From NCBI GenBank assembly GCA_014084085.1, contig NPFB01000167.1, forward strand, positions 24,841 through 50,828: a stretch of 25,988 nt of DNA, written 5' to 3'. Made by a program: the position numbers and the translations under genes. The DNA comes from Hondaea fermentalgiana (taxonomy: Eukaryota; Sar; Bigyra; Thraustochytrida; Thraustochytriidae). This document shows positions 1,780 through 24,515 of this stretch, in pieces. Position 1 is the stretch's first letter; each line of letters opens with the position of its first letter. The notes under the pieces were generated by a model. It had not been told where the DNA came from, made no database searches, and worked only from the letters and a program-made list of their open reading frames with translations.

Positions 1780-4700
1780 TTACCAGCATGCGGACCAGCC
1801 TCTGTAAAGTTGCGCTAGGTTTTCGTGAGAGGTGGCCTGATTGATGAGTTTCTCCACCTGCTCTTTCACCGACAATGCACTTGGTTCGCCATCGACCTCA
1901 CCCGAGCCAGCAAAGTCTGTCCCTTGCAACTTGTCGCGTACGCGGTCAATCACATCCACAGCGCGCTGGTTCAAGGTTGACTTCTCTGGTTTCTGGGGTC
2001 CACTTCCCGCGATCTTGTCGCTTGACGCGGAATGCCGTCTGTTTTCACTTCTTGCTGCAGTCGATGAAAATCCATTCGCAGTTGCGTCTTTGCTTGCACC
2101 AGCTTCCGCCACAGCGGCAGCGACGGCGGCAGAGGCACTTACAGCAGTGTCACCTTCCTTGCCATCCTTGTCTGGATTAAGAATGCGCCAGGAGACAAGC
2201 GGGTCGTAGACAAAGGCCTCAAGCATGGTGAGAATCGATTCGTGGTTTTCGCGCAAAACATGCATGACCGCATGGCACGTGTGTCGAAAAGTACCATCAA
2301 TCCCGGACGCCTCCATAGCCTTCACGAGCATTCGTGTGAGACGAAAGGGCACCGTTTCCGGAAAGTTCTCGCGATGCATGGTGGACTCGAAACAATCGCC
2401 AAAGTCAATGTGCAAAATTCGACCGGAGCTGCGCTCGAGCATCAAATTGGAGGGATGCCGATCGCCAAGTCCCAAAATGTAGCCCACCATGGACATCGCT
2501 GCGAGGGAGCGTGTGTAGTTGGTCCGACGATCAATCCAAACCTCGGAATTCGGACTTTTCAGCCAAAGAACACGTGCCAGATCCTGCCCAGAGGTGTTAT
2601 CCAGCGCATGCTGAAAGATCTCAACCTTTTGCATCACCGTCAGGTCATCGTACTTGGTGTAGAACTCATTCATCAGCTTGTGCTCAACTTGAATCGGAAT
2701 GCGCCGCGACTCGCGGTACTCTTCAATAAGGCGGTGCAGAGTGTCGGTGTGAGGCACCCACTCCACAACACCCGAACTCGAGGAAAGGGGAACCACGGCG
2801 TACCGCTGGATCTCGAGACCGAGCTTGCTTGTGTCTTCGTCAAGATGCAAGAGTCCGTTCACGAGACCAAAGAGCTGCATGACACGTTCGTCCATGCGCA
2901 AGTCCTCGTTGCCCTTCAGAAGAAACATGTGAGAGAACCCGTCACTGCCCATGATGGTGATCACTCGAGGTCTTTGCTTGGAACTAATGATGCGAACCGA
3001 CGGCTCGAAACCTGCAATGCGAATGACCGGCGCACCCACCTGATAGGTGCCAGGAACGGCGAGCTGCAGGTCGCGCGCGCGCAAGAGAATGGGCGATACG
3101 TTTCGAAGCTCAATCTGCTTGTGCTGGAGTTGCTGCTTGATTTGACGGAAAACGCCATAGTACAGATCCCAAGCCTGGTCCAAAAACGTCTTGTTTTTGT
3201 TCCCTGAGGCTTTGAACTGCCAAAGCCATTCTGCAGCCTCTTCCAGATTCAGGCCATACGCCTGCACAAAAGCTACCTCGTGCAGGGTTTGAGGCCCATC
3301 TTCGTCCATGTCGTGGTGTAACGAAATGAGAATTTCCGCCATCGCATCCACGTCAGGGTTCTCTGTAAAGTATGCTCGCGAAGCGTCTTCGAGCCGAACA
3401 TACCACTTTTCGTGCCAGAGCACCGCGATACGAATGAGTTCACGGGATACGACAATCGCTTCCTCCGCAAGGGCCGGGTAAAGATTGTGCATGCCGCGAA
3501 TCACGTGCTTTGCGGCAGCAGAACGCGCGGGGTCATCCGACTTGGACGCCACCGTTAGGGGGTAAATGAGCGTCTGCGGATGCGCTTCTCCAATGCGAAG
3601 CAAGAGCTCGCACACGAGATCGCCATCGGTCTTGAGACGCGCAATCAGTTGCGGAATGACGCCCAGCCACACATCAATCTCAAGTGTTCCAAAACCCTCG
3701 TGCACGGAGCGCTTCACCGCCTCCTCTTCGTAATGACTGAACCAAAGAGTCAAGAGTCGAAGAATGTCTTGCAAGACGTCAACTCCGCGTTCACGTCCAA
3801 GAGAGATGGAGCGAAAGAAGCCATTGATCGCAGGCACGACAAATTGTCGCTGATCTTGGAGCGCCCCACCCTCGTCCGTCTTTGCTTCACCATCCGCATG
3901 CGCAGCGGCAAGTTGCGGCGAGACCGAAGCTCGAAAGTTGGCCAAAGCCCAGGCATGCCAGGCCTTGTAGTTGTTTGGATCCAAGTCCGTCGCGTCCCGA
4001 TAACACTGCAGAATCTGTCCGAAAATGTGCTTGCTCTGTTCTTCGAGCAGCAGCGGGTCCCGTGACATGAGACTGTCACCTCTCAATGACGTTGAGTCAT
4101 AGCCTTTGTGAATCGTCGCTGTGATGGACATGCGCGCGCGTCGAGGGCGCGCTCGAGAGCGTGGCACAGGGCCTAAGCGTGGGGATCCTGGAGGTGATGT
4201 CGGCCGCGCGTCAGATTCATGGTTTGCCCCACCGCGCCCATTCTGTGCAGATGGCGCGCGCTCCATCGGCTGCTGGGGAGCAACAGGAGGGCGGGCTCCA
4301 GAGTCCGTGTCGCGTGGGCTCGGCGCCAAGGCGGCCTGTTTGTCCTTGACTGCGATCAGCCACGCACCCAACTTATTACTGCACTGGACCACGAGTTTAC
4401 GCAGCGCGTCTTTGCGTTGGAAATTCACGTCGAGCGCTTGTAAATCAGGAATAAGATAATCTTCAAGATCCGCATCGCTTTCATCAACACGAGGGCCTTT
4501 GCCCTCGGCTTCGTCAGCTGCATTCATCTCCGCGCGAAGCTGATCGAGATCACTCATGCTGAACAACGCGTTTGCATCCCCGATCACCGCCGCGGACGTC
4601 TTTGGCTCGTTCGAGGCGAAGACATCGCCGCCGTCGGAAAGGTCCCCGCTTCCCTCCTCGTCACCACTCGTGAATGCGGATCGAGGCGACCCAGCCTCTT

Positions 4701-7700
4701 CACTGACCTTGTCACCTCTTCGCAGCTTGTGCAAGCGTCGGGAAGAACTCGCAAACATACTACCATCGTTGCTGCTCTGGCCACTGTCATCCCTTGCGTG
4801 CTCACGTGTGGCGTGTTCCGTACGAAGAAATGAGGAACTTTGCAGACCAAGGTCGAGCGGGTGGTCTGCTTCCAGGCATCGCATGAGTACCAGTCGGAGA
4901 CGTCGCAGACGGTGAACCGCCTCGACGTGGTGGCCGCTCGCCCAAATGTACTTTACATACGCAAAGGCCACGCGTGGTTTCACCTTGAACTTGCGCGCAC
5001 GAATGTGGGCGCGCCCGCGCTCGCTGGGGGTCACCATGTGAAAACTCATGTCTTCCTTGCTAAAGAACTGGAGATCTGCCTTTTCCTCGTCATAATCAAG
5101 TAAAGCAGTCAAACTTCGCGTTCCCTCGGCACGCAACGACATGCCTTGATTGTCGATGTTGGCTCCGATGCCAAGACGCATCAAAGCCTGCAGCGAAAGA
5201 TTCAAAAGCTTTTCTTTGCGCGCAATCTTGGCAAAATGGAGCCAGGTGTCCAGATCGTCAACGGGATCGACAATGATGCTCCGATAGGCAAGAATCAGCA
5301 TGTAGGACGAAGCTGTATTCTGCACACCTTGCAGCCGTGCCGACCATACGCGCCGCAGACGATTGAGATATAATTTTGCCTCCTCGGTGTTCTCTTGGCG
5401 CAAAAGCTTCTTGTAATCTAGAATCTCTTGAAGCTCGACCATGTGCTGGACTTGGATCAGATGCGGATACGCACGTCCGTAGCTCTCCGCGACGAGCGAG
5501 GTGAGCGCTTTGTCCAGGATCGTATACGAATGATCGATAAAGGTTTGGGCATGCTCTAACCGGCCTTCATGCAGTGCCAAAATCACATTCAGGGTGCAGC
5601 CATCCGTGCGACTTGTATCAAGATAAGGAACAAACCGAGCAAGGTTTTCCCACTTGCCCAACGCATACGATGCAAGACCACCAATGGTCGCGAGCTTTTG
5701 CGCGTACCACCGAAGGTCTGACTCCGTGCTTTGTTCAGCATTCGTTGCCATATTGCTGCGCTGTGAAATCTCTTGCGAGTACCCCGAGACTTCGGCCACC
5801 TCGCGATGTTTTGACAATTCTTTTTCGACTTCGTTTGACACAACGCCTGAAAACGCGCCCATGCCCTTGTAGTAGTCGCGAATGTCGCGAGATACCGGAC
5901 TCAAGCTGTCGCCTGCAGCGTCAAAGGGGCTGGTCGCACGCACGGCGCCCACATATGCCTGATCCGGAACGTGTGGGCCTAGGTCGACGGGTGACGAGAG
6001 GCCCACCAACGGCTGTGGGTACGAAGTTGGCGACTTCTCACCAAGCGAAGAATAAATTCGGTCTGTTGACGCGCTCTCGGCGTTGTTGGGGGCTGGAACG
6101 AAGCTTCCACTTTGGCCAAAGAGCGCCTTGAGTTCGGGTTGGGGCCTTTCGGTGGCGCTCTTTGGCGAACGAGGGCCTGTCACTTCATCTTCGCCATAGG
6201 CCAATCGGAGTGCTCCAAGTCGTGACTCAGAGAGTTCCTCGTCCGTGTTGTGGGAAACTACGGATGAAGAGGCGTGCGAGCGATTCCGCATAAGCACCCC
6301 GATGGGCTGGCCGAGCGTCGACGTGGTGCCGCCGGGACCCTCGTCCAGAGATCGACGCCGACCCGAGGCATGGTCACCATTGCCCAAGGACGGATCGAGA
6401 ATGGCGAGATGATCCGAGGATCCTCGAAATTTGGGCAGAAAGTGTGACAAGACAGGTGGAGACGGGGCAGAGCCCGGTGAAGACGGCGTTGCATCGGCTC
6501 GGGGAGAGTGCGCGCTGCCCTCGCGAGGTGACGACGCGACTCGTGCAAGACTTTGATCGATCTCGCGCAGCTCAGCCCAGTGACCCTCGAGGAGGGACAG
6601 CACAGAATTCCACCCTCCGACCTTGTTGAGACAGCGCAGCCGGCCCACCGTCAGATTGAGTTGCTCCTTGACGGGCCACGATGATCTTGAAAGGCCATTG
6701 CGGCTTGATGAAGGTTGGCGGCCGCGCAAATCGCACTCGAGCTGATGCAACTTTTGATCGTATGCCTGCAATGCCTCGTCCCATTTTTGCAGACGCTCGT
6801 ACCACAGAGGTTTGACTTCCGTTGTTTCGGAAAAGTGAGATCGCGCAAACAGGACAACTCCAGCTGCAGCGTGGTGCATTTCGAGATTGTTGTTGATGTT
6901 GATGAGCTTTTCAATGCAGTCCTCAGGAACGGTGCGAAACTCGAGCTCTTTAAAGCGCAGCGCCTTGGCATACGCCTGACAACGGATTGCCACATCGCTC
7001 AACACACGAAGATCGATGGGCAGCGGCTTGTCATCGTGTTCCATAAAGTCCACAAGACCTAGGAAGACCTGCAAAAGGTCTTTGGGGATCTTGGGCGATT
7101 TCATCGCCAGCTCCATTTGATCGACCAGGCTATCACGCGCATTACTCTCAAGGTTGTCCCAACAGGAGAGAAATGCGGCGTTGAAGAGCTCGCGCGCGAC
7201 GGGGTCGTACGTTTCTGCGAGCGCATGGCATACATAAATAGCCTCAATGGGTGACTGCCGCAACAGCGCGAGCGTGAAGCGTCGCATCCACTCAAGCCAC
7301 TCTGCTTCTGTGCTGATTTGCGCCGTGTGCCATGCGGGTTTGAGCTGGCTCAGATCCATACTGTGCGAACGAACCATGGACTGCGTGCGTGTCTTGCGCG
7401 TCGCACTTTCCTTGAGTGGTTTCTCAAGGTACAAAAGTTCCACTTCGTTTTTGGCGTTGAGCCACTTTGGGCGGTCGAGCGCCTGTCCCCGAAGCACGCG
7501 GTTAACCAGGGCCAGATAAGACTCAATGGCTGCGCCTTCCTTGCCTACGATTCCTGTCGTCGAATGCGGTGATCCAGGCAGCAACAAGAAGAGGCCGGAC
7601 GCTACCACTTCACCAAGGGCCTTCTCCACAAGGGATACATAGACGGCAAAGTCTTCCTCGAGACGAAAGACAAGAGACTCGAGAGCTTCCATGACGAGAA

Positions 7701-10700
7701 TAAAGAGGGTCCGTTCTCCCTTGTTGCGAGCCACTTGCGCGGCAGCACTCGCTGTTGAGCTCGATGCCTCGGTCGCCGAAGATTCGCTCGACTCGGGCAC
7801 AGAGACAGAAGCTGCAGCTGCCGCACTACGCGCTTTGCAATCTTCCAAGGCATGCACGATTGGATGAATAATAAGAGAAGCGTACTCACTGACGTTGCAT
7901 GAGCGTATGATGAACTTGAGCGTGCTTACAGACTTGGCGCGAATCTCCAGCGGGACCAACGTACTATCGATGAGCGCACACAGCGTCGGGATGACGAGAT
8001 AGAGGTGTTCGTCAATGGCGGATCTGAAGCGTGACAAGACGTGCAACACATGCGTTGAGTCGACAAATTGAAGAGCGTCTCGCTCGCTGTGCAAAAGACT
8101 GAGCATGTCATCGAGCACGGTAGCCATATAAGGCCGCAAGGCGTCCGGCGAAAGAGTATCCACCAGAGCGTCTACGAGTTCTACGATGGCAGTCTTGTGT
8201 TTTCCGTTCCAGATTTCGTGGTTCAGTTCAAAGATTGCCGCCACATATGGCGTGATGTCGTCTTTGACAATTTTCACGAGAAAGATCAGCTCTTGAAGCT
8301 TTTTGGAAGTGATAGGTCGGCCATGCAGGCCCGCGCGCTGGATAACGTGGATCAAACGGGGCATGACGAGCGGGAGAAAGAGCGAAAAATTTGACTCGAG
8401 CGCCCGAAAAACACGATTGATCGCCTCGATGGCCGACATGAGATGCTCTTCGTGCTCAAGCTGACTCCGCGCAAGGACCTTGGACAGCGCCGTAATGGCG
8501 ACGCGAGGATAGTACTCGGCGTTCATTTGCACGGCTGACGGAAGGATTGCGCTTGCAGAAGTTTGATCGAGGAGGTCTGCCTGGACCTCTTCGTCTGCAA
8601 GCTGGTCTTGAATTTGCTGGTTGGCTGCGGCTGCTGCATAGGCTGCGGCTCCAGTGAATACCTGGGCACCATTCGTGGCATGCCAGGCACTGTTCGCTCC
8701 TGCAGCTTCATCGAGGGCCGAGCCCGCAGACACGCTCTGCGCTGCTACTGCGGTGCTTGCATTTGCAGGACCGGTAGCTTTCGTCGCGTCTGCACGCGTT
8801 CCCGCAGCGCCTGAAACCGAGATCGTAGAGGCCTTCACGGGCGTCTGCGCCAACACGTTTGGTCGATTGGCTGCAGAGGCTGCAAAGCTATGATCTCCAG
8901 GCTTGCTGCTGAGATTCTCGGCGCCCGTCGAGCGACCAGGGGCTTGGTGGAACTGATACAAGGTACTCTGGCGGCGCTTGTTCTTTGAAGTGTGCGACAT
9001 GACATTAATTTGCTGGGCCACAACGCGGATCGAAGACTTGCGCCGACCTCGACCTCGTCCGTTCAGAGCACGCGCAGACGCTCTGCGCGCCTGATTGCTG
9101 CTGCTCGTAAGTGTGTCTTGAAACGTAGGATTTGCCGTTGCCGCGCGTCGGTGCGCACCACCTGGAATGAAACCTGGCGGCACACCCGCGACGTGGGCAT
9201 TTGTCCCAGTGACCCCAGGTGGTCCCGGCAGCATCATCAGACCGGAGTCCTGGCTCTGCTGCGGTTCAGCACTTGGGAAAAGCGCGGATCCTCGTCCTCC
9301 AGGATGGCCAAAGTTCGCTCCGCCAAGGGTGCGACGAGCTCCGCTGTGGTCGCCGCCAAGAATGCTCGACATTTGCTCGAGGCCGGACATGGGAAAGGCG
9401 TCGGCAGGTGGCGGGCCCGGTGGCGGAGGTGGCGGAGGCAGAGGTGGGAGATCCGGGAACGCAGTGGACGGAAGATGAGCCGAAGATGGTCGAGGCACTG
9501 GACGAATGACAGGCGAGACTTCATGTGCTGGAACCGAGGGCTGTGGAGAATGTAAAATAGCAGCTTCATTGATCCCCTTGGGAAGGGAATCATGGCTCTC
9601 CTCTGTTGCGAGGGTCTCGGACGAAGTCCCAGGCACAGGATACAAATCAGACTTGACGAGATAGGAAGTCCGGCGAGATCGGGATCCCCAGAGACCCCCA
9701 GAAGCTGCTGGCATTGGTCTCGAGCCGGGAGCCTCACCCGACTGCCAGCCAGACCGAGTGGTCGCACGGGCTCCAGAAAGTATCGCGGTCTCCAGCGGTC
9801 GGTTGTGATCTGCAAACAAAGTGGGAGGCGGCTGCAAGGATGAAGAGTTTTTGGACAGAGCCCGAAAGGAGCCACTGCCGAAGCCATCAGTGGTGCTAGC
9901 AGACGCGTGATAGGAATGTTGCTGGCCGTGACTATCGAGGTCGAAGCTGCTACCCTCTACAAAACTATCTGTAAAGTACACTTCCTCCTCGGGTTCGCTT
10001 GAGCTGTCGTCTGCTTCATCATCGGAATCGACTTTCCTTGCAGCGAAAGCTTGGAGAACTGCAGCTGGAAGGTCGCGACTGCCGCCAAAGGCCAACAAGA
10101 GCTTTGGAATGGACGCTGCACTTTCGCCTTCAAGAGAACTTCCGACACCTTCCGCCGCGAGTTGCTGGTGATTCGTAAAGAGCCAGGGGTCGAGAGCGCC
10201 GAGTACACCATAGGTGATCATCGCTTGCTTGCGAAGTTCTACAGGAGCGCCCGGCATGACCATGGTCTTGAGAATGCTTTGGAGAAGTTGGGGGAAACAC
10301 AGGTAAGGCCAAATGGGAAGAGCTGCGTTGCTTGCCATGATGGCGAGCGTGGAAAGTGCCACCTCTCGCTTGAGAAAGGTGGAGGACGATCCGTCATCAA
10401 GAATGGTGACAATGATGGGAAGCACGCGCGCCAAGAGTGGCGAAAGCGTCGCTTCATCACCGACACGTGCAACTTCGCCCAAAGTTGCAAGCATGGCCGT
10501 TGCTACACCACGATGCACGCGATGAATCTTCGGGAGAAGAGTGTCAATGACCGTGGAAATGTGCGGACGCGCCAACGCTGGATTCAATGACCGAATGAGG
10601 AGACCAAGCAACATGACCGACTCTTCTCGGTGCTTTGGTTCGACGGCAAAATTCAGCTCATTGAGATGGCGTAAGAGCACCGTGTGCACAGATGGCATAA

Positions 10701-13700
10701 TCCTCGAAGGCGCTTGTGATGCGAAGCAACCTAGCGCATCCACTGCGACGGCGCGAACTTCAAAGTTTCGATCATTGGCCAGCACCATAAAGGAGCGGAT
10801 AAGCTCTGGGCTCTGCAAAAGAATTGGGGCGAATCGTTGCGAGAGGTCTTCCACCACGTACTGGCGCAACGCCACGTCCTCATCCGTCATGGCCACCATG
10901 ACGAGCCGCGCCATGATGTGATGGACAGCATGCATGTCAAGGGACGGAACGCGGTCATCGTCTGCATATCGATCCTCCTCGTCAACGACAAAGACTCCAT
11001 TTGATGAGGCTTGCGTATTGGCGGTATTAGAGGTTAGCGGAGGCGTTTGCGGTCTTCCTTGCTGCTGCTGTTGCTGTTGCTGCTGTTGCTGCTGTTGCTG
11101 CTGCTTTGGCTTTGTGCTGTTCGAAGCGGCTGAGGCATTGTTCGTTGCATCGTCCTTATTTCGAGCATCCACAGAAAAGATGCCAGCATGCGCAAACATG
11201 CTCTCCGAAAGTGAGAATCGTTGGCGAGGGTCTGACCCAGAGCTCTGTGAAGACCTCTTGCTTAATATTCGCGAAGGCGACCCTGATGCAAAGGTTTTAC
11301 CCGAGACTGCAGCGGCGAGCTTGCAGGTGGCAGCATGAGCCGCAAGCGCACGCGTGAGCACATAGCCTGCAGCTCGGCATGCTTCCATTCTCACGCGGGG
11401 ATCCGCGGCCTCGAAATGCCGCGCGACAAGTGATACGAGAATCGGGATAAGGTCAATGCTCTCAAACTTGAACGTCGACAAGGTCCTGAGAGCCAGAATT
11501 TGCATTTGCGCGCTTGGGTCAGAGTCCGCGTACTGCTCCTTTTCCGATCTTTGCTTCAAGACGTTGGAGTTCACGGTCGTACCGGTGTTGGCCCAAAAAT
11601 TTGCGGCCCTCCATTTGAAGTCCTTCCAGACTTCCCGCATAGACGACCCATTGTCCGAGGTGCGCGAATCCGCACGAGCGGAGCGGTGAGAAGCGCTTGC
11701 GGGCGACGCGTTTGCAGCGCTTTCTCGTCTGGAAACATACGAGCTGAGCGTCTCGGTCTCGAGTTGGTTGTTGAGGGCAAGCTTGCGCGTGAGCTTGAAC
11801 TGCTTTTCTTGGACGTGCTGCTGAAAAGCGCGATTTTTCTTGCCGCCGCGGACCGCGGAGACAGACAAAATGGCCGTCACTTCCTGAAGAAGACGCGCCT
11901 GAAGGACAATGGCGTCGTTGGCAAGGGTGTCGGTGAGAACAGCTAGCGTGGCGACGAGGCCTTCGCTAAGACCGCCACCGAATAAATAGGGAATGAGGGC
12001 GCGGAGAGGTTCATTAGAACCGAGGACGCCTACAACGTTGTGGGACTGCAAAAGCAGGCGGAGACAGTAAAGTGCCTCGGGGCAAAAGGGCCATCTGGGT
12101 GTGGCCGTGAGGCCGTCGCGAATGGTTTCGATGACTTGCAAAAGGTGGCTTTCGATAATCGCAGAGGCCTTGTTGAGCGTGCTCATTTGGCCAAGAGCAC
12201 GAAAAGCTGCCGGGCGGCTGCTCACGCGTGCGCTCTTTGCGGATTCGTCAGTGTTTGTTGTGCCGTTCGCAGACGAATTGGAAGTAGTCGAAGCCGACGA
12301 AGGTGGCACTGGGGACGAGATGGGAGGCGTTGAAGAGGGCGGCGGGGGTGGTGGCGTCGATGGCATGCTGCTGCTATTGGCTTTGCCCCGATCCCAAGTC
12401 GCGGCTAAGCGATGTTGCCCCGCGGAAGATGATGCGGAAGTGGCGGCTTGGCCTTGACCTGATCCCGAAGTCGGAATTCCTGCGTTCATGGGAGATGAAC
12501 TTGCCGACGAAATGAGGTAACGAAGACTTTGTGAGAGAAAAACAGCAACCGATGACGGATCTGGACAATGCAGCGCCAATCGAGGAAGAATCATCATGAC
12601 AGTTTCTCGTACGAGCGGATCGCTATGGAACCGCACATCGGGAAGCCAAATGCACTGGTCAAAAATTTCATCGAAACGAAAGCGTATGAACTCCCCCGTA
12701 CACTCGCCAATCAGCTCGTAGAACCCTAGCAAAGCGCCGTGCAAGGCCGCAGCATTGCGAAAACTCTGTCCACTCGAATGCGAGGGGGTAGATAGGCCTG
12801 CATCACCATTTGCACCGGGACCAGCACCCGCAGCAGCACCAGCGCCACCCGCGTGGTCGTGGTGGTGGTGATGCAATGCGTCACCCGATCCTGTTGATCC
12901 GTGTCCGCTGCCGCTGATGAAGCCAAAGAGGCTGCTTGGCTTGCTCCCCGCAGCGGCTCGCTTGAGCTTCGAGAAGCGACGACTTCGTGGAGATGTGACA
13001 CCGCCTCTGGACCCCGTACTGGCGCTGCGAGCGCCGGAAAAGGATCCGTATGGGTCTGGGAACTGTTTTCTTGCGAGTTCCCAAATGTCGTTGTACAGTT
13101 TGTATTTTTGACGCGCCTCGCGCTGTGCGATGACGCGCAGTGCGTAACGAAGAGCAATGGAGGCCGTGAAGCGAATACGCAAGTGTTTGTCACACAGTGC
13201 ACTGTAAATACTGCCAAAGAAGTCTTCGCTATGAATGTTAAACAGTGTTGGCGCGTTGAGGGCAAACTCTTTGAGCATGAGCACAGCGGCCAAGCGCTTC
13301 ATTTCATGATTCGTTTTGGCGTCGAGCCAGGCGATTGCCTTTTTGGACTCTCGCTCGACAAAAAAGGATGTCACAGAGGCTGGACCGGTAGCCAAAGATC
13401 CGAGCACGTGACATGCAGATTCGAGCGCCACGAGGCCAGCGCTCTTGTCCGAGGCAGGAATGCGGCCCGAAGCTTCCTGCTGGACGATGCGTGTTAAAAG
13501 GTTTATGACCACTACCTGAATGTTTCTATTTTTCACCTCGGGGTGAGCCATGTGAACGATTTCGTTAATGAGGATCGTGCACGCGAGACTGTCTGTGGAG
13601 CTCGAGGTTTTCTTCCACACCTCCATTTGAGCAATGACAGTTTTTAGAACGCGAGCAAAGCTCTCGCTTGACCGGCTGCGACTTTCTTGCTCCAAGTAGC

Positions 13701-14146
13701 GCCGCACGCGCTTTGTCGCGATGATGCGGTCATCTTTGTTTTTGGTGCGGAGCGACTACAGGTGGATAGGCCAAGCAAGACAAAGCGTCAGTATGTTGGG
13801 GTTGGTTATTCGTGCCTTCCACCACCACCATCACCACCACCACCAACACCATTTCTTCTTCTTCCTCTTTGAGAACAAGCTCTTGATCTCTCGCGGCACG
13901 TGCGTCTCCCATGCCGCCATGATTCTCCTACGCGCTCCACCTGCGGCCTGGCGGCCTCGACCCAGTCGGGCCTGCGTAGTCGTGCGGCAAGGGACCGGCA
14001 CGGGTCGAGGGCCTCGCGTCGAATTCACATTTTTCCCTCCACCCTCTCCTCTCCAGACGTCGCTGCGACGGGAAACTCACGTCGAGGGTCTTGCGCAGCG
14101 TCTGCTGGCCCTTGTCGTTGACCTGCTGCGACTGCCGCAGGTTCAT
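1780..14146 (-). CDS. TOR: Target of rapamycin (TOR) phosphatidylinositol-kinase-related Ser/Thr kinase, giant form (2 exons)
   Basis: Central nutrient/growth kinase, about 4013 residues against roughly 2500 in animals, plants and yeast. Exon 1 is 14146-14081 and exon 2 is 13755-1780. N-terminal HEAT repeats occupy most of the first half, the FAT region starts near 2210, and the FRB domain is about 3464-3560 (LWHEKW, then LEDASRAYF, then DQAWDLYYGVF). The kinase domain has a likely ATP-site Lys3636, catalytic motif GDRHPSNLML (D3787, N3792) and HIDFGD (metal-binding D3806). The FATC domain forms the last ~32 residues (ATSHENLAQLYRGWSACW). Extra length comes from low-complexity inserts: Gly/Ser/His-rich in the N-terminal HEATs, a 15-Gln run, about 500 residues near 1250-1760, and Ser-Pro-rich inserts near 2424-2654 and 2983-3260. 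The ORF is open upstream of the GTG at 13707 only to a TAG at 13756-13758 and has no ATG there, so an upstream exon is needed. The gene diverges from the NEL ligase gene. Confidence 0.97.
11059..11103 (-). repeat. CAG/CAA repeat encoding 15 glutamines in TOR
   Basis: Fifteen consecutive glutamine codons, a mix of CAG and CAA (read as CTG/TTG on the plus strand), lie in a low-complexity linker of the TOR HEAT region, flanked by Lys-Pro-Lys and Gly-Arg-Pro. The mixed codons suggest a coding-constrained run and not a fresh pure-repeat expansion. Confidence 0.95.
13756..14080 (-). other. Predicted intron 1 of TOR
   Basis: On the minus strand, exon 1 (14146-14081) encodes MNLRQSQQVNDKGQQTLRKTLD and ends at a consensus GTGAGT donor. 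The acceptor CCACCTGTAG ends at 13756 and exon 2 continues SLRTKNKDDRIIATKRV in phase 0. The joined sequence resembles the first helices of TOR proteins elsewhere (the LxSxNxExRxxAAxxLxxYV-type start). The intron is 325 bp and contains GGT/GGA- and GAA-type microsatellites. Splicing is inferred and no transcript was available. Confidence 0.8.
13820..13866. repeat. CCA/CAC and TTC microsatellites in TOR intron 1
   Basis: A (CCA)n-type tract with CAT/CAA interruptions is followed directly by a CTT/TTC tract. Both fall inside the predicted TOR intron, so they do not encode protein. The TTC side reads GAA-rich on the sense strand of TOR. Confidence 0.85.
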
Positions 14147-14468: not shown

Positions 14469-16712
14469 ATGCTCGTCCACTCGGCGCGGACGTCCACGAC
14501 GAAGCGGGACACGGACGCCTGGCTGGAGAGCGAGGGCGGGCCCGGCCTCGCTCTGGCGCTTGCCGGGTGCCGCAAGTTCTGGGCCGACGACGAAGACAGC
14601 AACGACCAAGGTCCCAAGACGGGCGAAAACGCCAGCGACGCCCAAGGGCTCAGCGGCGGGCGCCAGCGGACGCTCATTGTGATTCCGCCAAAGTGGCGTG
14701 AGGTGGCTGTGTTGGCGCTTGGCGAAACGCGATTGCCACGGCTCGACTTTCGCTGCTCTGTCATTTTGACGAGTTGTCCCAAGCTCGAACGTGTGGACGA
14801 AGGATACACCGTAAATGGGGACCTGACCATCGAGCACTGCAACGAGCTCGTCGAGTTGCCGCCGAATTTAGCCGTCTACGGCTCGCTGACGATTCTTCGC
14901 TGCGCTAAATTCGCGCGACTCGGACCTGGAACCTTTGTTTCGGGGGACTGCCGCATCCAGGGTTGCAAAGCCTTCCAGCACCTCCCCTCAGAGTTCCGAA
15001 TCGGCGGAAATTTGGAGTTAAACATGTTGGACGAACTCGAGACGCTTCCTCGTGATCTTGCGATAGGAGGGCGTGCAATCTTTTCCTATGGCCCGACGCT
15101 GGCTCTCCGCACGGACGAAGAAATTCTCGCGCGGACCGCTCCCAATCGAGTCAAGAGCGAGATGGTAAGAAAACTGCAAGTACCTACGCATCGCCGAGCC
15201 GTCGTGGCAGGAAGCTTGCGTGCTCTCGGCTGCAAGCGACTTGAGCTGGGCGAAAACTCGTGGGTAGGCGGGTCGCTTTGCGTCGCTTCGGAGGGCGGGC
15301 CGACGGGCCTGCTGGGTTCATCGACAATTCCATCCCCGCGACTTCTTCCATTTTCAAGACTATTCGTCGGTGGAAATCTATATCTTGAAGGTCTCACCGG
15401 CGCCGCCGAGCTCTCGGAGAACTTGAACGTACGCGGCGAATTTGTCGAGCTGCGTTCCTGCTGGGGCGTTTCTCACCTTCCCTCGAGTTTGTTTGACGTG
15501 CGCAGTGCGACGAAGCCGCTGTATATTCGACTTATTGGAACTGGTCTTCGCGGAGGCGCTCTTGATGTCGTTCGAACCATGCAAGTACCTCACGTGAACG
15601 TGGAAATTTCGGGCGCTCAGCTCGAGGAACTCGCGGCTGCCGCGCAGCAGTCCAGCAAGCAGCTCGCGGAGCAAGAGCTCGCGGAGCATATTCGTAACTG
15701 GCACCCAACACTTCACCTCGAAGTCGACCCGGCTTATCAACGAGGGCTCCAGCTCTTCCTCACCAAACTGAGGAGCTCCAAAGAATACATCAATGAGATG
15801 CTCCGCGTCGGCCTCGTGCGCCGTGTGCGTGAAGCATTGGAGCTGCTAGCTCAGGAAGATCTTTCTACGCGTTCCGAGTTACTCTCGCGCGTGTGTGATA
15901 GTGTCGACAGCTGCGGAGATAAGCCCATCTGGGCACTGAACCAAATATGCGCTCTGGCCGCCATTATCAAAGCTCGCAGGGACGCTGACGCGCTTCGCGA
16001 GGTGGGACGAGCCATCATGCGGCTTGGAATTGTACATGACTTTGCAATGCGCAAAGTGACGGCGCTGGGTCCGAGTGTTGACGAGGTGTGCGTGTTTTTG
16101 AGGTACGAAGTTGATCTTCGCGAGCGCCTCGCGCTTCCTGTATCAGCGGTAGAAATGCTGTATCCTCACTATGTAAACATTGGGTCAGAAGACCTCGAGG
16201 CGGCCGCACGAGCTGTGGAAGCCGCCACGGAATCCTCATTCCAGCAGTGGCTCTCTGCTTGGGATGAGTGGCGTCGATTCCTGCGTTGGCAGCAAGTCGT
16301 TCCTTATGATCAGCTGCAATGTGCTGATGCTTCTTTTCGATTTTCGGGAGCATGGTCTCGCGCGGTTGTGCTCCGTGGCGAAGAGTGCGGATATGACGAG
16401 GTGGCCGAGTATTGGGAACGCACAGGGCTAGACCTTTTCACGAATTCTCGAGTTGATGCACAGACGTTATTTTGCGGGTTGTTGCGTGCGCCCGGCCCGT
16501 CTGAGTCCTCGCGTTTGCAGCTCGAGGGCGGAATCATTATGGCAGAGGATGCAGGAGAGCAGAGAGACATTGACGCGGCCGAATCCGCGTCGTTCGCGCG
16601 ACACCGCGCGGAAACAGGGGGCGGTGGCCGTCGTCGCAATGCTCTGTACCGCCTCTGGGCAAGCATCTGTTCCATCCTTCCTTCGCGCAATAGCAAGGCT
16701 CTTTTGGTGTGA
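14469..16712 (+). CDS. Leucine-rich-repeat NEL-type (bacterial IpaH/SspH-like) E3 ubiquitin ligase
   Basis: 747 residues, no intron. Residues ~90-375 carry irregular LRRs with a clear 21-residue register. At 114-197 four units follow the pattern xVxGxLxIxxCxxLxxLPxxL, and further copies lie near 285-330. From ~390 to 610 the sequence matches the NEL domain: the catalytic CxD motif is C482-G-D484. It is followed by the helical signature (LGIVHDFAMRKVTALG, VDEVCVFLRYEVDLRERL, then the SEDLEAAARAVEAATESSFQQWLSAWDEW region). In bacterial members the Cys forms a thioester with ubiquitin and the LRR selects substrate and restrains the ligase. Here that activity is inferred. A Gly/Arg-rich tail ends in a short hydrophobic stretch. 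The start was chosen at 14469 because the ORF further upstream is Pro/Arg-rich shadow coding antisense to TOR exon 1; an ATG at 14145 is the alternative. Probably acquired from bacteria and now embedded among eukaryotic genes. Confidence 0.88.
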   Translation: MLVHSARTSTTKRDTDAWLESEGGPGLALALAGCRKFWADDEDSNDQGPKTGENASDAQGLSGGRQRTLIVIPPKWREVAVLALGETRLPRLDFRCSVILTSCPKLERVDEGYTVNGDLTIEHCNELVELPPNLAVYGSLTILRCAKFARLGPGTFVSGDCRIQGCKAFQHLPSEFRIGGNLELNMLDELETLPRDLAIGGRAIFSYGPTLALRTDEEILARTAPNRVKSEMVRKLQVPTHRRAVVAGSLRALGCKRLELGENSWVGGSLCVASEGGPTGLLGSSTIPSPRLLPFSRLFVGGNLYLEGLTGAAELSENLNVRGEFVELRSCWGVSHLPSSLFDVRSATKPLYIRLIGTGLRGGALDVVRTMQVPHVNVEISGAQLEELAAAAQQSSKQLAEQELAEHIRNWHPTLHLEVDPAYQRGLQLFLTKLRSSKEYINEMLRVGLVRRVREALELLAQEDLSTRSELLSRVCDSVDSCGDKPIWALNQICALAAIIKARRDADALREVGRAIMRLGIVHDFAMRKVTALGPSVDEVCVFLRYEVDLRERLALPVSAVEMLYPHYVNIGSEDLEAAARAVEAATESSFQQWLSAWDEWRRFLRWQQVVPYDQLQCADASFRFSGAWSRAVVLRGEECGYDEVAEYWERTGLDLFTNSRVDAQTLFCGLLRAPGPSESSRLQLEGGIIMAEDAGEQRDIDAAESASFARHRAETGGGGRRRNALYRLWASICSILPSRNSKALLV

Positions 16713-16760
16713 GAGAAGAAGAACAATGTATATACTTTTTTTATCGTCTTACAAAATAAA
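16713..16760 (+). terminator. Candidate polyadenylation signal of the NEL gene, overlapping the convergent gene
   Basis: The only AATAAA after the NEL stop codon is at 16755-16760, inside the last codons of the minus-strand gene that ends at 16749. If used, the two mRNAs overlap at their 3' ends. Confidence 0.4.
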
Positions 16761-18698
16761 GTCTTGAAGTAACCTGTCGAGCTCGTCTGTGTTTTCCTCG
16801 ACAAGTCCATCAAACGAGGATGATGAAGAAGAAAACGAGGCACCAGCACCAAAAGTAGCCGTTCCTGTTTGATCTGGAAGGAGGCTAGCGCCAAGCATGG
16901 CGTCCACAGCTTGTTGAGACGGCTCGGTCCCGGTGTTGTTTTGGACAAAGATTGAACGCGTTTGTAACGACGCGCCCGGTCGATGGCCAGACGAAGGTTG
17001 AGTTTTGGAATAGGGCTGCGGCAAAGCGAACGAGGACGCCTGATTTTGGCGCCTATTTTGCGTGTGATCGTTCTGCGAGCGCCGATCGAGGTGGTGTGTG
17101 GGTGCGTGGCGAATGGCCTGCTGCTGTTGTTGTCTCTGATTGTGTCTCTTCTGGCGTTGGGCCTCTTCATTGGCCTGGTGCTGCTTCAGCGCACTGACCT
17201 CGCGCACGAGATCCCGCAAAGCATCTTCCTGCCGGCGAATTTGCTTCCGCAAGGTGTCGCATTCGCCAAGAATTTCTTCTCGAAGAACCGAAAGCCGGGC
17301 ATGTCCGACCTCGGCGTGTCCGTAATAAAAGTCGCGGCCCGGCGCAGCACCTGCCGTATATGGGTCATGGGCTCGTGTCGCGATGTCAACGTCTCGTCCC
17401 TGTGCAGGAAGAAACTCGCGAGGCTGATTGGAAGGCATACTCATTTGAACGTGGTGTCGCGCGGGAGAATGTTGTGGGGACACTGGATTGGCATCTCGAG
17501 GCTTTCGAAAGTGCTGCGGCGACCCGTCATTCGCTTGGTGATTGGCTTGATGATGCAGATGCTGGTTTCCTGTTGCTTGTTGATTCGAAGTGTTATTGTT
17601 GTTGTTGTTGTTGTTGTTGTTTGTGCTCTCAGTATCCGCAACTTTCATTGACGATACGGGGGCGGTCTCGTGGTGATCCTGATGCTTGGCACCGGTATAA
17701 CGTCCCTTTTCTCGCTCAAAGGCCATGCGAAGTTCTTCGCGCTCGCGCTCAAGACGTTCCTCCTCTTTGCGTTCCTCTTCCTCGCGCTCGCGCCGTTCTC
17801 GTTCGAGACGTCGACGCTTTTCTTCAAGCTGCTCTCGAAGAAATTGCTCTGTTTCGTGTTGCTTGCGAAGTTTTTCTTGGATACGGAGCTGCTCCTCTGG
17901 AGCCGCGCGGTCGAAATGGAATCGGGAGTGACGAGCGCTTTCCGATTCACGATGCGAATTAATACCCGGACTCATGTGCCGAGAACTCGTCTTGTTGTCA
18001 AAGTCGAGCGGGGGCACAAAGCCTGATGCAAGCGCTGTGTAATTGGAAACCTTGGCAGTATTATATGGAGTGAAGCCATACGTTGATGGTTCTTGCGGAC
18101 GCGTGGGCGATGCGAGAGCAGACTGCATGTATGACGTTTTACCCTTTGGCGCGCCGTCAGTAGGATATGCAGATCCAGCGATGAGATCATGCTGATGGTG
18201 TGTTGGTGATGTCAAGGTACTTTGCGTTCGAAGATTGGCAATGAGACCACCGTGAGAGTCTCGAAGGGGCGCCCCTGCTCCTCCTTTGCCAAACGGATTG
18301 TAATTCGCAATTTCTTGACGCTCGCGCTGTTGCTCGCGCTGAAGTTCGAGTTTTTCCTGCGCCTTGCGTTCATTTTTCAGCGCAATTTGTATGTCAAGCT
18401 CGCGCCTAAACTGCTCCTGTTTGCTCAATTTGGCCAAATGTGCCTCATCGGGAGGGGCATGTTTGGCTTGCAGCGTTTGAGCAAAGGCGCGCGGAGGCAG
18501 CGGTCGCGTGGGGGATGACGGTGCATTCCCGCTTGCCTCGCTTTGCATGATCGCCGATGCTAGCTGCGCTCCGCCCGGCGCCCAGGCGGTCGCTGATTGT
18601 TGATAGAGATCTTGACGCGAAGGCTTGGCGTGGCCGCCATATTCGCTCTCGACCCCAACGCCAAGGTCGCGGACCGCACCGCGCGGGTCGGCAAACAT
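16749..18698 (-). CDS. CSPP1-like centrosomal / ciliary coiled-coil protein
   Basis: 649 residues from an ATG, single exon. Near residues 85-150 it has the arrangement known from CSPP1 (centrosome and spindle pole associated protein 1) and related basal-body proteins: a charged helix (FRRELDIQIALKNERKAQEK), then NYNPFGKGGAGAPLRD. A strong Arg/Glu-rich coiled coil follows at about 263-333, then a disordered His/Asn/Gln-rich linker with ten Asn in a row, then a second coiled coil at about 465-526. It ends in an acidic helix (DELDRLLQDFIL). The family acts at centrosomes, spindle poles and the ciliary axoneme or transition zone, so this gene implies a flagellated stage. The assignment rests on the NPFGK-GAPLR motif plus architecture; most of the chain is low complexity and not diagnostic. 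The gene converges with the NEL gene, with 36 bp between stop codons. Confidence 0.72.
   Translation of the reverse strand: MFADPRGAVRDLGVGVESEYGGHAKPSRQDLYQQSATAWAPGGAQLASAIMQSEASGNAPSSPTRPLPPRAFAQTLQAKHAPPDEAHLAKLSKQEQFRRELDIQIALKNERKAQEKLELQREQQRERQEIANYNPFGKGGAGAPLRDSHGGLIANLRTQSTLTSPTHHQHDLIAGSAYPTDGAPKGKTSYMQSALASPTRPQEPSTYGFTPYNTAKVSNYTALASGFVPPLDFDNKTSSRHMSPGINSHRESESARHSRFHFDRAAPEEQLRIQEKLRKQHETEQFLREQLEEKRRRLERERREREEEERKEEERLEREREELRMAFEREKGRYTGAKHQDHHETAPVSSMKVADTESTNNNNNNNNNNTSNQQATGNQHLHHQANHQANDGSPQHFRKPRDANPVSPQHSPARHHVQMSMPSNQPREFLPAQGRDVDIATRAHDPYTAGAAPGRDFYYGHAEVGHARLSVLREEILGECDTLRKQIRRQEDALRDLVREVSALKQHQANEEAQRQKRHNQRQQQQQAIRHAPTHHLDRRSQNDHTQNRRQNQASSFALPQPYSKTQPSSGHRPGASLQTRSIFVQNNTGTEPSQQAVDAMLGASLLPDQTGTATFGAGASFSSSSSSFDGLVEENTDELDRLLQDFIL
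17592..17621 (-). repeat. AAC/AAT repeat encoding ten asparagines
   Basis: Ten consecutive Asn codons (GTT/ATT on the plus strand), nearly pure AAC, lie in the disordered linker of the CSPP1-like protein. Confidence 0.95.
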
Positions 18699-21810: not shown

Positions 21811-23727
21811 TTAATTGAGCGTAAAGTCTTCGTGGCGAAAGAATTCCCCTCGGTCTTGAAGCGACTTTGGCTCAGGATCGACAATGCTTGCATCAAAAGT
21901 GTATGCGCGCTGAAGAAATTGTCCCGCAACCACTGCCACATCAAGGTCGGCACAAAGCGCCTGCGTGTGACGGAGAAGAGATTCGAGGTAAGATTTGTCA
22001 ACGGCGGCCTCTCCGGTCGCTGCAAGCGTCGTGCTGAGTGCCTGGAAAGCGCCGCGGACGGTTGCGAGCTTGGTGGCCGCCTTGAGAACGTTGACAACAG
22101 CCGCAGTGCGCTGTGCAGACAAAAGCCCATGCGTTTGTTGCGCGCGATGGCAGTCAGCGTCGATATTGGGCCAATAGCGCGATGTGTAAATTGCATCTTG
22201 CTCGGCATGATACCACGCCTCCTGGCGATAAATGGAGCTGTTAACAGCATTGTGCAACTTCCAGATGAAGAGACGCAAGGATGAGGGCGTGTCGATGGCT
22301 ATAAGTTTGTCAGCAAGGGTGAGGGTGCCATCGATGTTGTCGACTGGATCATTCCAGCCCAGCAAGAGGTACTCGATCGGGTAGAGATCGCGCTCACGGC
22401 CAAGAGCCACGTACTTGTTGAGATGGAAGCGGCAGTACGGACACGGGTACATGGTTGCAAAGAGCGGCATGTAGGCCTTGAAAGCTTTGACAATCTCCTC
22501 GCTCTCTTTTGCGCAGGCGATCTCAGCCACGGTATGCTTGAACTTCCACACGGCATTTCCGATAAAGTATGGAAAGGTGAGACGCATATCTGCGTTGCGC
22601 ACGTACGCGCGACCGAGGGGGACATCCAAGAAGGCGACGTATTGCGAAAGGTCGCCAGTGGCACGGTGATCCACGCCAGACTCTGCAAAGCGTTCGCGGT
22701 TCTTTTGAAAACCATTCAGATAATGACGCGTCAAACGCCACGCACGACGAACCCGCTTGCGCTCACTCGGGCCAAGCGATGGCCAAGCCTCCAGGACGTC
22801 GCACGCAAAGGGCTCGAATTCATGCTTGTGCTCTTCAAACCAGTCACTGTCGTCATTCTGCTCCTGAGCGCTTTCGGCGTTGCTACAAGCGACAAGCAAC
22901 CGCGGCATAAAGTCTTGATACCACCATTGCACCTGGATCATGGAGCCGTCGACGCGTTCTTCATGATGCTCTAAAATTACGCGGTTCCACTTGGCAAGGT
23001 AAGCTTCAGCACTCATGTCGGACGGCGGAAGCATTGACGCTGCAAAACCCTCGGCGTAGCCAGCCTCGGTTCGTGCAAGTTTTGCGCGCTCGTCATGAGC
23101 TTGTTGAAGACTCTGCTGCCTCTCTTCCTGTGCCTCGCGTGCTTCGAAAACGGCAGCGGCGTGTGCAAGGTCACAAAGCTTGCCCGAAGTAGCGTCCTTT
23201 TCCATGTTTGTGAGAAGAGCAGCTCCGACATGGACTTTGAATTCGAGCTTGGTCTCATCGTGATTTGCATTTTCCTCATTGACGCGACTATGCTCAGCAA
23301 GTGCCTCTGGAGAAAGCGATGCGACGTCAAAGTTAGCAATTCGATCGTCCAAGGCTGTATTTTCTTCATGCACGGCTTTGCGCAGCTCGTTCCAGGCGCT
23401 TGCGTCAATCTCGTGAATGTCCAGCGCGAGCACAAGTTCGACTATTGCGTCGATGAAAGCGACAAAGTTGCGCCACGTGTACGGAAGTTCTCGAGCCGTA
23501 AGATGCGTGTGATAGTTTGCGGAAAATTGTCCGCGGTGCACGCGATAGGCTGCGCCTTGGATCAGCCTAAAGAGACCTGTCTGCAATTCAAGCAAGCTCG
23601 TTCCATCATTATCTCCCCCGAGCTTTTCGATGACCTGAAGGACCTGTGCTTTGCCAGCCTCGTCGAGAGCCACAAAGGCTTCTTCGAGCTCCTTGCCGGC
23701 GGGGAGAGACGAAGCTCCGCTGCCCAT
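21811..23727 (-). CDS. N-myristoylated protein with C-terminal Erv/ALR sulfhydryl oxidase domain
   Basis: 638 residues if translation starts at 23727. Residues ~385-500 match the Erv1/ALR FAD-linked thiol oxidase fold: GNAVWKFKHTVAE (W394, H398), the redox motif C429-P-Y-C432 after a Tyr-Pro, and FIWKLHNAVN (H492, N493, N496). In that family these residues bind FAD and pass electrons from thiols to oxygen, making disulfides. A second shuttle CxxC, common in Erv1 and QSOX, is not seen. The N-terminal ~380 residues are mostly helical and charged (a Gln/Glu/Arg-rich coiled coil near 220-250) and match no domain I know. MGSGASS at the start is a typical N-myristoylation signal, so the protein is predicted to sit on the cytosolic face of a membrane, unusual for a disulfide-forming enzyme. 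The same frame is open for 215 more codons to an ATG at 24372, which would remove the myristoylation site; that extension looks non-conserved and is not adopted. Confidence 0.75.
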   Translation of the reverse strand: MGSGASSLPAGKELEEAFVALDEAGKAQVLQVIEKLGGDNDGTSLLELQTGLFRLIQGAAYRVHRGQFSANYHTHLTARELPYTWRNFVAFIDAIVELVLALDIHEIDASAWNELRKAVHEENTALDDRIANFDVASLSPEALAEHSRVNEENANHDETKLEFKVHVGAALLTNMEKDATSGKLCDLAHAAAVFEAREAQEERQQSLQQAHDERAKLARTEAGYAEGFAASMLPPSDMSAEAYLAKWNRVILEHHEERVDGSMIQVQWWYQDFMPRLLVACSNAESAQEQNDDSDWFEEHKHEFEPFACDVLEAWPSLGPSERKRVRRAWRLTRHYLNGFQKNRERFAESGVDHRATGDLSQYVAFLDVPLGRAYVRNADMRLTFPYFIGNAVWKFKHTVAEIACAKESEEIVKAFKAYMPLFATMYPCPYCRFHLNKYVALGRERDLYPIEYLLLGWNDPVDNIDGTLTLADKLIAIDTPSSLRLFIWKLHNAVNSSIYRQEAWYHAEQDAIYTSRYWPNIDADCHRAQQTHGLLSAQRTAAVVNVLKAATKLATVRGAFQALSTTLAATGEAAVDKSYLESLLRHTQALCADLDVAVVAGQFLQRAYTFDASIVDPEPKSLQDRGEFFRHEDFTLN

Positions 23728-24515
23728 CTTTGCACGCGATTGCAATACGTTTTGCGTCCCTCGACCCGACCCCGTAGTGCGAGGAAAGAAAACATCCTTC
23801 GAGCCGTTACGAGGGGACGGGACACTCTGAAAGTGTCCTATTCGACTCTTGAGCGTTTGCTCAACAACCAGAAAGAAACAAGAAAACCAAAACAAAATAT
23901 CTCCTGGAAGGCAGCTGTGGCAAGTTCTAAAGCTCATCGGGAGTCTGCCCACTTGTTGTTTGAATTTTGCTGGCAGGTTTCTAAAAAGATCGAATCTGAC
24001 CTTGTCAATTTCCTTGACCAAGCAATTTGGCTTCTTGTACACCTCTAGCGTGAGAAAGATAAATCCAATGCAGTGACCGCTGGACGGTGAATAGTGGAAT
24101 CTTTGCCGCAAAGCGTCCGGAGGTTGTTCGGCATCAATGAAAGCAAGGCGGGGTTCGCCATCACACCTGTTCAACCTTGGGCGACGAGAGAATTCATTGC
24201 AGCCTTGGCGATTCCCCGCCTCGACTGAGACATCATGGTTGCGACGCAGCGCGCAACAAACTTCAAGTGCGTTGTCGCAGAACTGGTTGGCACGAATCAC
24301 GAAAAGACTCTCGCTCCCCCAAACTTGCCCTTGTAAAGAGGAACCGACAGGAAGACTTGAGCGTGAGGACATGATTCTATTTCATAATTTACGTCCAAAT
24401 GCCCAGCAGTGGAATTTTATGTACGCGCCTGGCGGCGCTGCAGTACAATCTGATGGAGCCAAATTTATGTCATAGTCGGATCGGAGTTGTAAAAAGGAGC
24501 AAGGGCAAAATTCTT
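23728..24515. other. 788-bp spacer holding the 5' region of the Erv/ALR gene
   Basis: This lies between the chosen start of the Erv/ALR gene and the stop codon of the next minus-strand gene. The minus strand is open in the Erv/ALR frame for 215 codons (to 24372). Its predicted peptide is Cys- and Phe-rich with no recognisable domain and the DNA is more AT-rich than the gene body. It most likely represents 5' UTR and promoter. No other gene is supported. Confidence 0.5.

Follow-up and report, generated by a model that had tools for sequence, protein, structure and literature searches.

A multi-copy family of NEL-type ubiquitin ligases in Hondaea fermentalgiana with a predicted U-box-like module apparently in place of the bacterial thumb

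Results

The stretch of DNA analysed here (the window) comprises 25,988 nucleotides of the genome of Hondaea fermentalgiana, a marine protist of the thraustochytrids (Stramenopiles, Labyrinthulomycetes; assembly GCA_014084085.1, contig NPFB01000167.1, positions 24,841 to 50,828, here contig C76), and the gene under study is an open reading frame (ORF) at 14469..16712 on the + strand, which encodes leucine-rich repeats (LRR) followed by a NEL ubiquitin ligase (E3) domain, the same order as in bacterial LRR-NEL effectors. The ORF runs from ATG to TGA without interruption and gives a protein of 747 residues, as a first-pass annotation of the window had described it. Below, P-numbers denote related proteins, with P0001 being the window protein, and L-numbers denote genomic loci. 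A Pfam scan of P0001 returned a single family, NEL (PF14496), at residues 424-608 (15738..16292, + strand; E 6.7e-27, 94.7 bits against a cut-off of 24), and the NCBIfam models IpaH, SspH2 and SlrP matched at E 1.6e-13, 4.2e-13 and 6.2e-11, all of them far under their own cut-offs. A sequence search of the PDB gave 13 matches at E <= 1, 12 of which were NEL effectors (best E 6.8e-13) and the remaining one an LRR protein. The AlphaFold model shows the NEL helical fold with a confidence (pLDDT) of 84-98 across residues 421-609, and all eight Foldseek matches of the whole model at E <= 0.001 were NEL effectors; the VIA structural-match list for the whole model was dominated by LRR rows, so that folds missing from that list are uninformative. 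The predicted catalytic motif C482-G-D484 (15912..15920, + strand) was placed by alignment to bacterial NELs: its cysteine and aspartate align with the C and D columns that are invariant in four such domains (rhizobial and Serratia). Together, these comparisons bore out the first-pass assignment of a NEL fold with a C482-x-D484 motif, and confirmed that a genuine NEL domain with an intact C-x-D is encoded in a eukaryotic chromosome.

The LRR region spans residues 86-381 approximately (14724..15611, + strand), with 21-residue units in its first block. Strand starts in the AlphaFold model lie at residues 119, 140, 161, 182 and 203, i.e., every 21 residues, and the hydrophobic autocorrelation at lag 21 was reached by 9 of 1000 shuffles, with lag 27 scoring equally high (0.132 vs 0.129); the spacing in the model agrees with the 21-residue array proposed initially. 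The reading frame is open from 14091 and holds an additional in-frame ATG at 14145, upstream of 14469, making a longer N-terminus possible. The relative P0002, a transcript of the MMETSP collection that matches P0001 over its full length at 50% identity, begins at the residue corresponding to ATG 14469, in agreement with the shorter N-terminus.

We then consider the region behind the catalytic domain, where bacterial NELs carry a helical ‘thumb’ that binds the ubiquitin-loaded conjugating enzyme (E2-Ub) (PMC12506513). Alignments of P0001 to the bacterial NEL sequences of the PDB end at residues 605-613, before the thumb, the long antiparallel helix pair expected after residue 609 is absent from the P0001 model, and a profile of the family tail found no match among bacterial thumbs. 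In this position stands a conserved tail with a predicted U-box-like fold (residues 612-690 approximately; 16302..16538, + strand). The tail profile (alignment A6) was built from 29 of the 33 NEL-bearing P-proteins, leaving out P0019 (because its model departs from the others in the tail), P0024 and P0028 (both missed by the pattern) and P0033 (by oversight), and contains two columns that are invariant and eight that are nearly so, with the motif order (D/E)PV, hairpin, helix and then a D..N region. This profile, the AlphaFold model of a paralogue tail and Foldseek matches all point to a U-box fold, with modest scores. An earlier profile of 14 rows had found no U-box match in the PDB, and its top row, a DNA polymerase iota chain (E 0.36), was judged a chance match, as polymerase iota was absent from the matches of the 29-row profile. 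In the P0001 model itself the tail shows a hairpin, a helix and a short helix in U-box-like order (block pLDDT 72-94 over 621-680), and the whole model gave weak Foldseek matches to the AvrPtoB domain (2fd4; E 3.5, probability 0.75) and to the spliceosome chain 7b9v_u (E 0.96, probability 0.63), which we take to be Prp19, the matched residues not being specified in either case. The similarity to bacterial NELs therefore stops before the thumb and, judging from the models, a U-box-like tail apparently takes its place.

A profile search of the 36.0-Mb, 238-contig genome found 13 NEL places above the cut-off on 12 contigs, none with an internal stop, and none in the 14 control genomes of the same search. 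The C-x-D motif is kept in all 13 genome copies and in 33/33 NEL-bearing related proteins. Pfam scans of the genomic copies covered 11 of the 12 others (L014, whose frame runs off the retrieved sequence, was omitted, and L015 was scanned in part) and showed that the partner domains vary, with SPRY and LRR in L015 and L016, armadillo in L018, and LRR-type stretches elsewhere; some frames are open to about 2,000 amino acids or more. One neighbouring ORF was scanned at each of 10 loci, and nine had a family at E <= 0.001 (L010 under its cut-off, and L011 a family of unknown function); among these neighbours are kinesin, tubulin, ABHD18, a PQ-loop protein and a class-III aminotransferase. At L017 (2339-7128, contig C172), the NCBI model P0030 (‘Tubulin beta chain’, 1271 aa) fuses the NEL ORF with a separate downstream tubulin ORF (L017:5647-7128), which is probably an annotation error.

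Relatives were also found outside the genome. A protein search with the L009 paralogue returned 31 proteins, including eight with Hondaea names, one from Durusdinium trenchii, one further MMETSP transcript and one named SspH1, so that two relatives in all are MMETSP transcripts; the NEL part of L009 is 100% identical to that of one of the Hondaea proteins. NCBI names on members include ‘Disease resistance protein TAO1’, which probably reflects LRR similarity only; Pfam assigns NEL to these entries. Between P0001 and P0002, identity is highest in the NEL (63%), followed by the LRR (51%), the N-terminal part (48%), the tail (43%) and the C-terminal end (28%). The record named Durusdinium trenchii (P0015) is an armadillo-NEL protein with a terminal dsDNA_bind domain (PF01984) on an 11-kb contig; either thraustochytrid DNA may have contaminated the dinoflagellate assembly, or the dinoflagellate may truly possess a member of the family. 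The protein search with alignment A2 listed two PF20530-annotated proteins without NEL, the one examined being LRR-rich, and the genome and viral scans with this alignment gave none of this type. Matches on an Acetobacter plasmid cover the LRR part only and were set aside, and the phage records matched were one unannotated Escherichia phage record at E 1e-6 and three at E 6. Given that 13 places, varied partners and relatives in other data sets are present, the LRR-NEL gene that the first-pass annotation regarded as lodged in a eukaryotic chromosome does reside there, as one member of an expanded family and not as a lone gene.

The relation to bacterial NELs was addressed in an unrooted 64-row tree, which took 22 of 31 NEL places from a genome survey and 5 of 84 named bacterial loci, eight Hondaea P-proteins being swapped for genomic loci. 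The survey covered the phylum of one Bradyrhizobium genome and found NEL places above the cut-off in 9 of 398 genomes, a count that includes the centre Bradyrhizobium genome, picked for having NEL. In the tree, the 37 protist-type rows group as a single clade with support of 100/99. This clade is united at 99/96 with 11 rhizobial/Serratia-type rows, which are of the LRR-effector type, and the other 16 bacterial rows stand apart. For an earlier tree, five loci out of a set of 80 were tried, and L044, L045, L095 and L097 failed the selection pattern. The pairs P0001 with P0002, L009 with P0006, L018 with P0016, L013 with P0014, L016 with P0023 and L017 with P0032 were supported at 96/87 or better in at least one of the two trees. 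Since these pairs include non-Hondaea rows, part of the expansion likely predates the species; the very close rows P0014 and P0023 could be near kin of Hondaea. The supported pairs, together with the 13 genome places, speak against a lone, recent insert.

The window gene lies head to head with a divergent gene for TOR kinase (1780..13707, - strand, 3975 aa), in which FRB, FAT, kinase and FATC domains were found, the two ORFs being separated by 761 bases. On its other side, a convergent ORF of 649 aa (16749..18698, - strand) lies tail to tail with it; the label ‘CSPP1-like’ given to this ORF was not confirmed, its top match being CCDC66 at 17.1 bits, under the Pfam cut-off of 29.9. Further ORFs above their Pfam cut-offs, one Erv1/Alr-like (21811-24372, 36.9 bits) and one ATG27-like (529-1506, 47.6 bits), support the eukaryotic context. 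The G+C at third codon positions (GC3) of the window gene is 0.62 compared to 0.53-0.59 in six neighbouring ORFs, its overall G+C is also near the neighbours' values, so that a compositional island is not supported and nothing in the composition points to a recent transfer. Positions 15000-24840 of contig C76 (L112), adjoining the window, were N in the stretch checked. The protein ends in a C-terminal segment (residues 719-747; 16623..16709, + strand) with a low-confidence predicted helix at 721-736, which could be a membrane or sorting element; this segment contains an LPSR stretch common to P0001 and P0002, and a similar LPSS stretch is found in the L017 protein.

Discussion

Our data are best explained by a multi-copy protist family of NEL ligases, likely derived from one bacterial acquisition, apparently thumbless, with a module predicted to be U-box-like where the thumb would otherwise sit; we put the probability of this reading at roughly two in three. 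Under this proposal, an ancient acquisition from bacteria would have been followed by exchange of the thumb for the U-box-like module, and the genes would then have multiplied as endogenous E3s whose substrate readers are interchangeable. The N-terminal repeats would select the substrate, through LRR in the window protein and LRR, SPRY or armadillo domains in paralogues, while the U-box-like tail would dock a ubiquitin-loaded E2; ubiquitin would then move to the NEL cysteine (C482) as a thioester, with D484 assisting, and from C482 pass to a substrate lysine. NEL cysteine chemistry is established in bacterial members (PMC12506513), and by analogy we infer the same chemistry for the protist family. 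The variety of readers and the number of copies point to several substrates, with immune-like recognition perhaps among the functions. The wider claim, to which we give even odds, is that these proteins make up an unrecognised class of eukaryotic E3s, here called NEL-U-box relay ligases: a U-box that replaced the thumb would recruit E2 and act in one chain with a bacterial-type NEL cysteine domain, and the class would have radiated in thraustochytrids with LRR, SPRY and armadillo readers.

As for origin, the sequences are most simply read as a single transfer, with a bacterium that carried LRR-NEL effectors as the donor, followed by expansion, and the gene transfer and domestication suggested by the first-pass annotation are consistent with a phylogeny in which the protist rows form one clade beside the rhizobial/Serratia-type rows. 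Several observations weigh against parts of our proposal. The tree is unrooted and has a long stem (1.87), flags were raised on one row for its composition and on another for its length, and the bacterial sample is narrow, so that the direction of transfer is only inferred. No tail scored over the Pfam U-box cut-off, either among the 29 tails or among the 14 of an earlier scan, and the U-box claim consequently rests on profile and fold comparison. In addition, P0001 and P0002 have some of the most divergent tails of the family, with no DPV motif, and the two taken together match no U-box. These findings on the tail speak for an endogenous NEL ligase that binds E2 through the NEL alone, with a tail that is U-box-shaped and, in the window gene if not elsewhere, has no E2-related role; possibly, in this copy, it is the NEL itself and not the tail that receives E2. 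We regard this alternative as unlikely, as the tail, with its invariant and nearly invariant columns, is conserved family-wide and occupies the position of the bacterial E2-binding thumb.

Two further explanations appear improbable. One is that the protein descends from a NEL ligase, is catalytically dead and serves as a scaffold or as a decoy that binds ubiquitin. Two bacterial NEL-like places, L141 and L135, lie in very long frames without C-x-D and are, by their sequence, probably inactive NELs, indicating that motif loss does occur in the superfamily; this is opposed by the retention of C-x-D in every genome copy and NEL-bearing relative of the protist family, and by the NEL being the best-conserved region between P0001 and P0002. 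The other, to which we attach similarly little weight, is a eukaryotic effector family secreted by the protist against prey, hosts or competitors instead of an endogenous ligase: the architecture resembles that of bacterial injected effectors, and thraustochytrids are described as decomposers and parasites (PMC11642839), whereas the armadillo and SPRY partners and the very long frames argue against this reading. Bacterial contamination or misassembly is hardly credible, since, although short windows can be chimeric, NEL genes occur on 12 contigs, beside TOR here and kinesin, tubulin or ABHD18 elsewhere, with base composition near the neighbours' values and a full-length relative among MMETSP transcripts.

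Compared with the LRR-NEL type III effectors IpaH, SspH, SlrP and NopM, with which the window protein has the NEL (PF14496) and LRR in common, the protist family is encoded at 13 places of a eukaryotic genome and not in a bacterium with an injection system, its similarity ends before the thumb, with the predicted U-box-like tail instead, and it includes SPRY and armadillo fusions; four of its members are 23-26% identical to a Sinorhizobium NEL (alignment A4). To U-boxes (Prp19, UBE4B/Ufd2 and CHIP, as well as AvrPtoB and LubX) the family tail is similar in motif order and in predicted fold; it differs from them in having no Pfam score, in sitting behind a cysteine-type E3 domain and, in the P0001 copy, in lacking DPV. 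In RBR ligases such as Parkin and HHARI, a RING recruits E2 and a cysteine receives ubiquitin. The likeness to these enzymes lies in the proposed logic, an E2-recruiting RING-type module and a catalytic cysteine in one chain; the NEL catalytic fold is unrelated, the order of modules is reversed, and the relay in the protist family is our proposal. TRIM/SPRY and NLR-type immune proteins likewise combine a repeat or SPRY reader with an effector domain in multicopy families, whereas no nucleotide-binding (NB) domain was found among the Pfam matches of the protist NEL family.

A review presents the NEL ligases as a family of enzymes that bacteria inject (PMC9320238). A NEL-homologous domain has been noted, under a SUPERFAMILY label, in green-algal NLR-like genes (PMC7145615), PF14496 was among the query profiles used for Giardia (PMC7029713) and has been applied to bacterial effectors (PMC6557245), and the accessible main text of PMC12221091 names neither NEL nor SspH. 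Among the matches listed in the open-licence literature, there was no description of thraustochytrid NEL ligases or of NEL-U-box proteins. Because Pfam already assigns NEL to the database entries, the domain call is not new; what is new, as far as we have searched, is the recognition of these proteins as a family, the apparent absence of the thumb and the predicted U-box-like tail. If correct, our proposal would show how a pathogen-type ligase gets tamed, and would extend the repertoire of eukaryotic E3s by an unrelated cysteine-type enzyme. The natural swap would also make it testable which part of a NEL recruits E2, and the protist family offers NEL enzymes for study from non-pathogens.
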